Shown here one piece after another: positions 32,483-54,797 of a stretch of DNA of 64,000 nucleotides; the first letter of the stretch is position 1; each line of letters starts with the position of its first letter. Under the pieces are notes generated by a model. That model was given only the letters and a program-made list of their open reading frames with translations, was not told where the DNA came from and did not search any database. Origin of the DNA: an uncultured Clostridia bacterium (GTDB lineage: Bacteria; Bacillota; Clostridia; Christensenellales; CAG-138); the NCBI GenBank assembly GCA_947168855.1, contig CAMVNO010000006.1, positions 62,001 through 126,000 on the forward strand, written 5' to 3'. A program made the position numbers and the translations under genes.

Positions 32483-32511
32483 TTGACAACCGCGCTCCCT
32501 GTCTGTATATT
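32483..32511 (+). promoter_or_regulatory. Promoter of cysK-cysE
   Basis: -35 TTGACA (32483-32488), 17-bp spacer, -10 TATATT (32506-32511). Expected +1 near 32518, giving a leader of about 190 nt before cysK. Confidence 0.8.
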
Positions 32512-32545
32512 ATATACAATCTTTTGAAGGGAGAATCGAACGGGC

Positions 32546-32614
32546 ATGATGAACCGCAATGCTTTCGCGTGTTGTTGTTCCGGCGTCACTCTGCCCGTTT
32601 GCTCGCTCGGATAG
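32546..32614 (+). CDS. Cysteine-rich leader peptide of the cysK-cysE attenuator
   Basis: 22 codons: [20 protein letters not shown] then LG and a TAG stop. Cys codons are at positions 9, 10 and 11 (TGT TGT TGT) and at 19. AGGGAG lies 12 nt before the first ATG. The ORF sits between a good promoter and an intrinsic terminator in front of two cysteine-biosynthesis genes, as expected of a leader peptide whose translation reports charged tRNA-Cys. The codons are too concentrated to be chance in a random 22-codon frame, but translation is not proven. Confidence 0.75.
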
Positions 32615-32629
32615 GATTGTGTTTGTTCT

Positions 32630-32660
32630 GCCGGGAGGCCTGCGGGCTTCCCGGCTTTTT
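32630..32660 (+). terminator. Attenuator terminator upstream of cysK
   Basis: 11-bp stem with one G-T pair, tetraloop TGCG, followed by TTTTTGTTTTC, 49 nt before the cysK ATG. Confidence 0.85.
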
Positions 32661-32708
32661 GTTTTCACACGCAAACGAAATCAAACATACAATAATCGGG
32701 AGGATCCT

Positions 32709-33638
32709 ATGAACATCTATTCATCCGCCGATCAACTGATCGGAAACACACCGCTTCTGGAGCTTCGTGGCACTGAAACCGCGGAAGGATTGTTGGCCGC
32801 GCTGCTTGCGAAGCTCGAATACAAAAACCCCGCCGGATCGGTCAAGGACCGCATTGCAAGGGCGATGATCGACGACGCGGAGCAGCGCGGGCTTCTGAAG
32901 CCCGGCGCAGTCATCATCGAACCGACCTCCGGCAACACCGGCATCGGACTTGCGGCAGTCGCCGCGGCGCGCGGATACCGCACGATCATCGTGATGCCCG
33001 AGACCATGAGCATCGAACGGCGGCGCATGATGCGCGCATACGGCGCGGAGCTCGTTCTGACGCCCGGCGCAGAGGGTATGAAAGGCGCGATCGCGAAGGC
33101 GAACGAGCTGGCAGAAAAGATCCCGGACGCGATCATCGCCGGGCAGTTTACAAACCCCGCCAACCCGAAAGCGCATTACGAATCGACCGGACCGGAGATC
33201 TGGCGAGATACGGACGGCAAGGTCGACCTTTTCGTTGCGGGCGTCGGCACCGGCGGAACGATCACCGGCGTCGGCAGATATCTCAAGGAGCGGAATCCGC
33301 ACGTGAAGATCGTCGCGGTCGAGCCCGCCTCCTCCCCCGTGCTTTCGGGCGGCAAGCCCGGCGCGCACAAGATCCAGGGCATCGGCGCGGGCTTCGTGCC
33401 GGACGTGCTGGACCGTTCGGTCATCGACGAGATCGTTACGGTTTCCAACGAGGACGCGTTTTCTGCCGCGCGGCGCATCGGCAGAAGCGAGGGCGTTGCG
33501 GTCGGCATTTCCTCCGGCGCGGCGGCGCATGCGGCGATCACGCTTGCGAAGCGCCCCGAAAACCGCGGCAAAACGATCGTGGCGCTGTTCCCGGACGGCG
33601 GCGACCGCTATCTTTCCACCGCGCTCTTTGAGGATTGA
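32709..33638 (+). CDS. cysK: Cysteine synthase (O-acetylserine sulfhydrylase)
   Basis: 309 aa PLP enzyme that replaces the acetyl group of O-acetylserine with sulfide to make cysteine. The PLP lysine is in [11 protein letters not shown] (about 38-48), the substrate loop is [11 protein letters not shown] (about 75) and the phosphate-binding loop is [12 protein letters not shown] (about 180). The ATG at 32709 has GGGAGG 5 nt upstream. First structural gene of the operon, with cysE 2 nt behind, and controlled by the cysteine attenuator. Confidence 0.96.
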
Positions 33639-33640
33639 AC

Positions 33641-34522
33641 ATGGAACACGATTTCCGAGAACTGATCGGCGGGATCGCGGACGCGCTGCGGAACGCGGAC
33701 GAGGGACATGTCGACGCAAACGATTTCAGCTCGTTCAAAAGCAGCGCCGAATACATGACGGACCGATTGATCGACGCCATGTTTCCGCGGCACGCCGGAA
33801 AGGCGATCATGCGCGAGCAGGCGCTTTTTGAGGCGGCGGAGCTTTTGGGCTTGCTTCTGCGCATGCTGTCCTATGACGACAAGCGCGCCGGAGCCGTAAC
33901 GCGAAAGCTGATCGAATCGCTTCCGGAGGTATATCGCGTCCTGAAGACCGACCTTATGGCGGCATACATCGGCGACCCCGCGGCGAAGGGCGTCGACGAG
34001 ATCATCCTCTGCTATCCCGCGTTTTCCGCGATCGCGACCTTCCGGCTCGCGCACGTTCTGTACCTCGAAGGCGTACCGCTTCTGCCGCGCGTGATGACCG
34101 AGTACGCGCATCGGCTGACCGGCATCGACATTCATCCGGGCGCAACGATCGGGGAGTCGTTTTTCATTGACCACGGCACCGGCGTCGTCATCGGCGAGAC
34201 CGCGACCATCGGCAGCGGCGTCAAAATCTATCAGCATGTCACGATCGGCGCAAAGAGCTTCGATACCGACAACGACGGCATGCCCGTCAAGGGTGTGAAG
34301 CGACATCCGGACATCGGCGACCGCGTGGTCATCTACGCCGGCGCGACGATCCTCGGCGGTGAGACGCACATCGGAAACGACTGCGTCATCGGCGGCAGCG
34401 TGTGGCTGACGCATTCGGTCGAAGCGGGCAAGATGGTCCTTGCGCGCGCCGCAGTCACGGATTCGACGCTGAAGCGCGATATCATGCAGGCGTCCTTCCC
34501 CGAGGACAGTGCAATGCTCTAA
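33641..34522 (+). CDS. cysE: Serine O-acetyltransferase
   Basis: 293 aa from the ATG at 33641 (GAGG upstream; a TTG at 33635 is the only close alternative). An alpha-helical N-terminal half is followed by a left-handed beta-helix of hexapeptide repeats (GIDIHPGATIGESFFIDHG...VVIGETATIGSGVKIYQ) that contains the catalytic His. It makes O-acetylserine, the substrate of CysK, so the two genes form the complete serine-to-cysteine route. The helical part is long for the family, as in Firmicutes EpsC-type enzymes. Confidence 0.94.
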   Translation: MEHDFRELIGGIADALRNADEGHVDANDFSSFKSSAEYMTDRLIDAMFPRHAGKAIMREQALFEAAELLGLLLRMLSYDDKRAGAVTRKLIESLPEVYRVLKTDLMAAYIGDPAAKGVDEIILCYPAFSAIATFRLAHVLYLEGVPLLPRVMTEYAHRLTGIDIHPGATIGESFFIDHGTGVVIGETATIGSGVKIYQHVTIGAKSFDTDNDGMPVKGVKRHPDIGDRVVIYAGATILGGETHIGNDCVIGGSVWLTHSVEAGKMVLARAAVTDSTLKRDIMQASFPEDSAML

Positions 34523-54576: not shown

Positions 54577-54598
54577 GTCCCATGCAGATGCATGGGAC
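54577..54598 (-). terminator. T-box terminator upstream of pheS
   Basis: Perfect 10-bp stem (54577-54586 with 54589-54598) followed on the minus strand by TTTATCTTTAT, 24 nt before the pheS ATG. Confidence 0.85.
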
Positions 54599-54791
54599 GA
54601 AAAAACTTTCCGCGGTACCACCCAAATTAAGGGCAATGCCCTTCTCTCGTTTCCCCGATAACGCGAGGACGCGCTCCGAAAGGAGATGCTCCGGTGCTGA
54701 ACCTTCCCGTCCGTGCCCTGTTCCCCCGCTTTCAGCCGCGGCGGAGGCTCTCTTTCACTGCGTTCGGACGGTACCTGACACCTTCAACGCT
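54577..54791 (-). promoter_or_regulatory. T-box riboswitch, phenylalanine specifier
   Basis: The T-box sequence TTTGGGTGGTACCGCGG occupies 54610-54626 on the minus strand. Stem I starts near GGTGT and closes with GCACC; the specifier loop next to that helix carries TTC (Phe) followed by A. The stem I GAAAGAGAG segment and a stem III hairpin CTCG/CGAG are visible. Uncharged tRNA-Phe should bind and favour antitermination. Confidence 0.88.
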
Positions 54792-54797
54792 TTGCCT

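Follow-up and report, generated by a model that had tools for sequence, protein, structure and literature searches.

The window (the whole stretch of DNA analysed, 64,000 nucleotides) carries cysK and, 2 nt 3' of it, the start of a cysE-like gene, preceded by a leader that contains a promoter, a short reading frame with a run of cysteine codons and an intrinsic terminator (Table 1). An earlier sequence-only reading had claimed a consensus promoter, a 22-codon leader open reading frame (ORF) with cysteine at codons 9-11 and 19, and a strong intrinsic terminator before cysK, and all three are present. The terminator is an 11-bp stem (32630-32655) followed by TTTTTGTTTT, the last of the four cysteine codons occupies 32600-32602, and TTGACA hexamers are found at about the same position in the attenuator-bearing relatives described below. 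Two in-frame ATGs are possible starts of the ORF, and the distance of 12 nt from AAGGGAG to the first of them is a long spacing for a leader ORF. A promoter-like sequence, TTCACA-18-TACAAT, lies at 32664-32693 between the terminator and cysK, probably by chance; we set it aside as a promoter that would bypass the leader, because its transcription start would coincide with the ribosome site of cysK.

Table 1. Features of the cysK-cysE leader and operon (window coordinates)
Feature	Position	Strand	Evidence or comment
Sigma-70-type promoter TTGACA-17-TATATT	32483-32511	+	11/12 matches to consensus
AAGGGAG, purine-rich, probable ribosome-binding site of leader ORF	32527-32533	+	sequence
Segment 1 (AACGGGCA)	32539-32546	+	pairs with 32592-32599 if leader untranslated (predicted fold)
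Leader ORF, 22 codons	32546-32614	+	TAG at 32612; alternative start ATG 32549
Putative sensing run TGT TGT TGT (Cys 9-11)	32570-32578	+	first two Cys kept in all 24 leaders, third in 22
Segment 2	32592-32610	+	predicted partner of segment 1, or of segment 3 (antiterminator); covered by a modelled ribosome at TAG
Segment 3 (terminator 5' arm, loop and first 3'-arm bases)	32630-32647	+	also 3' side of the predicted antiterminator
Segment 4 (3' arm 32645-32655) and T-run of intrinsic terminator	32645-32660	+	sequence, alignment
cysK, cysteine synthase A	32709-33638	+	TIGR01139, 462.2 bits (cut-off 350.95)
cysE-like serine O-acetyltransferase	33641-34522	+	best family TIGR01172 (cysE), 149.9 bits, below cut-off 210.65

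The leader as a whole is predicted to fold much more stably than shuffled versions of it (-63.5 versus -46.7 +/- 3.8; z -4.45), and within it segment 2 has two possible partners. Segment 1 is complementary to TGCCCGTT at 32592-32599, and the 1:2 pairing proposed earlier is predicted, with a segment 1 slightly longer than the 32541-32546 first assigned to it. The proposed antiterminator between segments 2 and 3 is predicted as well, but it is larger than described: 32593-32598 pairs with 32642-32647, a second helix joins 32606-32610 to 32631-32635, and further pairs form inside (-27.2 kcal/mol).

The genome containing the window, G000, belongs to a genus, g1, within a family of which 103 genomes were examined; its closest named records are mostly metagenome bins, several of them from rumen or other gut samples. 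CysK was found in 19 of the 23 g1 genomes, and in 14 of these 19 a Cys-run leader ORF lies upstream of cysK. A terminator was called by script in 13 of the 14 leaders, the exception, L015, having a stem with a broken T-run. A covariance model of 14 g1 leaders, R1, was then scanned across genomes; the filters were tightened, and no more than 29 preliminary candidates were scored per genome. At E < 0.001 it matched 15 of the 23 g1 genomes, including the newly added G004, whose match is close to the end of a contig, and 9 of the 12 genomes of a second genus, g20. There was one place per genome, which leaves a multi-gene regulon unsupported within the candidates scored. All 24 places (L191-L214) precede the start of cysK and have a Cys-run ORF, so that R1 has no member lacking one; the sequence-only reading had named relatives with a terminator but no such ORF as evidence against it, and among these places there are none. 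The initial leaders had been chosen for their Cys runs, and the results free of that choice are L201 and the lack of other places matching R1. The remaining three g20 genomes offer no cysK start for comparison: G065 has no CysK match, G070 matches over residues 118-307 alone, and G060 has two more distant copies.

The g20 leaders differ in sequence (for example, MRKATFNCICCCTVCHGRLVVPM) and each has its own terminator. On the CysK tree the distribution of the attenuator requires two changes, and the element may have a single origin. Outside these two genera R1 gave six matches, with E from 0.0035 (the best) to 0.087. In other families of the order, where 271 of 396 genomes gave a match, we looked at 80 cysK upstream regions, the best-scoring among the matches listed and not an even draw. 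A single weak ORF (L230) was present in them, and none held an attenuator. An ORF with a start resembling a ribosome-binding site, two adjacent cysteines and three cysteines in six codons occurred at 1 of these 80, where single-base shuffles of the same regions gave an expectation of 0.1.

All 24 leaders have Cys at the first two positions of the run, and 22 have it at the third as well; the exceptions, L018 and L022, carry Lys and Gln there, with a further Cys two codons later. The ratio of synonymous to non-synonymous single changes is 0.50 (expected 0.29) among g1 leaders (n = 15) and 1.0 (expected 0.27) among g20 leaders (n = 7; L025 and L030, with longer ORFs, are excluded), these counts being pairwise, not independent, and subject to RNA pairing that constrains some codons. 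The Cys runs of the 24 leaders contain TGT 65 times and TGC 5 times, whereas the 11 long window ORFs taken as genes contain TGT 8 and TGC 48 times; the leaders are related, and the 70 run codons are not independent choices. This bias towards TGT in the sensing run, as against TGC in the genes of the window, provides a testable point on codon choice in tRNA sensing.

The sequence-only reading had also expected that Cys codons, ORF, 2:3 pairing and terminator would be kept jointly across relatives, and they are, in 14 leaders, with compensating changes. The alignments left out duplicates (L001, L036, L037, L038, L041 and L043) and repeat places (L191-L200 and L202-L214); L201, at a contig end, was excluded from alignment A1 and included in the spacing, Cys-run and codon-change counts. 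In the 14 aligned g1 leaders, 97.4% of 153 terminator cells are paired, 6 of the 11 pairs show double changes, and the covariation score was reached by 0 of 500 shuffles. For the antiterminator, 90.9% of 154 cells are paired, as against at most 54.5% in slid versions, and 2 of 500 shuffles reached its covariation score; its inner helix has a C-G to U-A swap in six sequences. Two of five covariation measures for the antiterminator fall within the shuffle range, its double-change pairs (2; reached by 135 of 500 shuffles) and further pair types (6; 168 of 500) not exceeding shuffles. The 1:2 helix is 92.0% paired, slid versions reaching at most 47.3%, with covariation no higher than in shuffles. 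In the nine g20 leaders, the antiterminator is 94.7% paired and shows no covariation above shuffles, a comparison that is uninformative because the helix is nearly invariant there (14 of 19 pairs).

Spacing is conserved as well. The distance from stop codon to terminator stem is 17-20 nt in 14 of the 15 g1 leaders (no stem was called in L015) despite a variable linker, and in 12 of the 15 the final Cys codon of the run starts 18 nt ahead of the segment 2 core, CCCG. In L018 and L022 the core reads CCCA and the distance is 21 nt; the script did not find the core in L201. Using textbook values for ribosome footprint length, we modelled two situations. When the A site holds codon 9, 10 or 11, segment 2 is left free; when the ribosome is at the TAG, it covers segment 2 and its footprint ends just before 32630. 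Masked folding gave matching structures. With the ribosome stalled and the polymerase at 32648, the free RNA is predicted to form the antiterminator (-27.2 kcal/mol); with segment 2 covered, the terminator forms alone (-24.1 kcal/mol), which agrees with the earlier suggestion that the TAG is placed to mask segment 2. In the finished free RNA, the terminator-containing structure is equal to or slightly better than the antiterminator (-27.9 to -29.6). As the two are about equally stable once the RNA is complete, the switch would rest on timing, and folding decided by timing is the usual logic of attenuators.

The leader combines three of the features expected of a leader-peptide attenuator: a run of end-product codons before biosynthetic genes, an intrinsic terminator between them, and a conserved antiterminator that excludes it. 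Judged from sequence comparison, it is very probably a transcription attenuator worked by the ribosome, with charged tRNA-Cys as its signal and cysK-cysE as its target. In an untranslated leader, segment 1 would pair with segment 2 and the terminator would form. When cysteine is plentiful, the ribosome would reach the TAG at 32612 and cover segment 2 (about 32594-32629), the terminator (from 32630) would form, and the transcript would end near 32656-32660. When cysteine is short, the ribosome would pause at codons 9-11, between segments 1 and 2, leaving the RNA from 32592 onward free; segments 2 and 3 would then pair while segment 4 is still to be transcribed, and the polymerase would continue into cysK-cysE. 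What we would expect in cells is thus translation of the ORF, stalling where charged tRNA-Cys is scarce, and either termination or read-through.

The same RNA switch could in principle be shifted by an arrest peptide, if some other signal (metal, sulfide or oxidation) made the nascent Cys-rich chain stall the ribosome. The RNA would look identical in that case, the leader peptide is Cys-rich, and Cys-rich leaders can bind metals. However, the peptides of g1 (..RNRFACCCxGxxMPVCxxG) and g20 (MRKATFNCICCCTV..) differ outside the Cys run, the residues that g1 peptides share near their end are those overlapping segment 2, and the controlled gene makes cysteine; we regard an arrest peptide as very unlikely. 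Less probable again is a terminator governed by an RNA ligand or by a factor acting in trans, with the small ORF a mere by-product. A strong terminator in a leader would suit this explanation, as some terminators are switched by proteins, but two features, the Cys run and the distance from stop codon to terminator, persist while other positions vary, and the leader has no Rfam match at the curated score. It is scarcely credible that the terminator just damps transcription and that the Cys codons are chance or leftover, for although short ORFs are common and terminator-like stems without Cys codons precede cysK in L129, L132 and L153 (no promoter being found behind the stem), the combination stands at 24 R1 places of two genera with compensating changes, and only 0.1 such ORFs would be expected in 80 shuffled regions.

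Besides attenuation by charged tRNA-Cys, we considered the other regulators that might act at this operon. A T-box binds tRNA directly, without a leader peptide; neither it, nor another riboswitch, nor a known RNA family was found at cysK, the leader having no Rfam match at curated scores, and a scan of the cysK loci of 17 relatives returned a single tRNA and nothing else. The window has one Rfam match overall, a T-box before pheS-pheT (54590-54796, minus strand). G000 has five T-box matches, with valS, ileS and pheS among the downstream genes and none at cysK; T-box matches also lie at G000:C3:248699-248906 and G000:C2:361487-361665, the second below the curated score. Control by a CymR/Rrf2 operator was not supported, the best match to the cysK-promoter palindrome in L005 being 6 of 10 (by a model derived here from the relatives' sequences and not from a published one) and there being no linked Rrf2 gene. 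The single Rrf2 match in G000 is beside nifS and is for that reason probably an iron-sulfur regulator.

Some relatives without the element may control cysK differently. We examined 71 loci of the family, of which 23 have the attenuator, 46 lack it and 2 (L019 and L023) carry a leader of another type. In all 23 attenuator loci a cysE match begins -1 to +83 nt after the CysK match ends, and an Rrf2-family match is absent from every one of them. Among the 46 attenuator-less loci, cysE lies within 400 nt behind cysK in 7, an Rrf2 match stands beside cysK in 10, the palindrome ACCTA-N9-TAGGT occurs with at most one mismatch in its 10 positions in 7, and 27 have none of these. A palindrome of this quality (9 or 10 of 10) is found at the cysK promoter in L017, L020, L021, L026, L031, L123 and L138, and in four of these (L017, L026, L031 and L123) an Rrf2-family gene is beside cysK. 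Of 150 upstream regions, a set that contains duplicates, 20 score at least 9 of 10, compared with 1.4 in single-base shuffles, and in other families of the order 14 of the best-scoring 80 regions do so. The g20 promoters have a damaged copy (ACATACTAAACCGATAGGA, 8 of 10), while the g1 attenuator promoters score 5 to 7 of 10, the same as shuffles. We take the palindrome to resemble known Rrf2-type operators, and from this resemblance and its place beside Rrf2 genes we infer that it would be an Rrf2 operator.

Terminators were also called by script in other named loci (e.g. L056, L057, L092 and L112), and nine cysK loci of more distant members of the family that lack a Cys ORF were viewed individually. 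L141 and L145 have no stem within 300 nt; L122, L130 and L134 have one upstream of the promoter, and that of L143 stands behind a tRNA gene. The terminator-like stems of L129, L132 and L153 have no recognizable promoter, and because of this these three may have leader terminators without Cys codons, in leaders of another kind. They are not part of the R1 element. L132 has a 33-codon ORF without Cys and then a terminator-like stem, 215-74 nt before a more distant cysK.

Other Cys-containing leaders were seen in g1 and in other clostridial lines. In g1, L019 and L023 have the ORFs MKRFGMQMWACTKHAVCCTAGRASHI and MNRISMAMWCTACWMRRVCHVFGIE (from GTG), respectively, about 270-190 nt before cysK; a strong stem with a T-run, evident from sequence and fold and not called by the script, follows the ORF, and a small reading frame with SGFRCR lies downstream of the leader in both. 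Candidate leaders with three consecutive cysteines occur in L059 and L080 (Clostridiales bins) and in L089 (a record titled Mogibacterium), with the ORF 182-86, 295-196 and 221-122 nt before cysK, respectively. L059 and L089 have the palindrome at 9 of 10 in the same promoter, and a similar sequence can be seen by eye in L080. By sequence, a pairing of GCTCCCGGGCG with CGCCCGGGAGC (GCTCCCGGGCA in L089) would compete with a terminator-like stem in L080 and L089; the pattern of these two leaders was found in 0 of 391 genomes of the class.

A tentative scenario, which we consider possible and somewhat doubtful, is that cysteine sensing at cysK-cysE was rewired in place within this one family. An Rrf2-type repressor and operator would first have been joined by a tRNA-Cys attenuator (g20, with its damaged site) and then replaced by it (g1) when cysK and cysE became one operon. 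Other clostridial lines (L059 and L080/L089) would have gained similar Cys-codon leaders separately, L019/L023 would have gained one of a different kind, and some of these leaders would still lie beside the operator.

Several known systems resemble this leader in part. Enterobacterial trp, his and leu attenuators follow the same four-segment logic, in which the stop codon lets a terminating ribosome cover segment 2. In those attenuators segment 1 lies over the sensing codons, whereas here it is at the start codon, and a stalled ribosome would therefore have to separate segments 1 and 2 by standing between them. The sequence-only reading had called such control unusual in Firmicutes, which stands for cysteine but not more generally: leader-peptide attenuators have been published for branched-chain amino acids and histidine, namely Listeria Rli60 (drawn, like our leader, with regions 1-4), Staphylococcus aureus ilv-leu and Bacillus hisS*/hisZ (PMC8079631, PMC6123439, PMC2965389). 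As those reports present them, these are systems of Bacilli, whereas ours concerns cysteine in Clostridia. We recognized no cysteine leader-peptide attenuator of Firmicutes in the literature searched, an absence that carries little weight given the thin coverage of subscription journals and preprints.

Runs of Cys codons in leader ORFs before cysteine genes, as seen here, have been described in Actinobacteria, in the cys operons of Mycobacterium and Propionibacterium and at cbs of Bifidobacterium (PMC1262725). In that account the runs are near the ORF stop and no conserved terminator hairpin is reported, in contrast to the terminator and antiterminator of our leader; the four-segment design is absent from the actinobacterial Cys leaders as described there. 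In M. smegmatis the mechanism is given as translation attenuation (PMC13236596, citing Canestrari 2020). The uORFC-8-2 motif, which precedes cysS in Rhodobacterales and for which attenuation by tRNA-Cys charging has been proposed, likewise has a short ORF with adjacent Cys codons, a terminator and a U-run (PMC8632094). As described, it is set apart by gene and phylum (cysS, not cysK-cysE; Alphaproteobacteria), and it has two Cys codons, mostly UGC and usually at 14-15, where our leaders have three, for which UGU is the usual codon and which in the window are codons 9-11.

Finally, the cysK-cysE operon of Clostridium perfringens is under a Cys T-box, with the same presumed signal (tRNA-Cys charging) and the same output (premature termination) as proposed here, through an RNA for which we find no counterpart at cysK (PMC2940859). 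Its specifier codon is TGC, as quoted for 100% of Cys T-boxes (Vitreschak, in PMC2940859), a preference opposite to the TGT that predominates in our leader runs. Since the same operon has a Cys T-box in C. perfringens and some relatives have an Rrf2 gene or the palindrome, the sensor of cysK-cysE seems to have been exchanged. What is new here is cysteine, cysK-cysE and Clostridia as the setting of a leader-peptide attenuator, a kind of attenuator that is itself known. With the same operon under a T-box in C. perfringens and possibly under Rrf2 in near relatives, the family may offer a natural series in which to follow the swap of one sensor for another.
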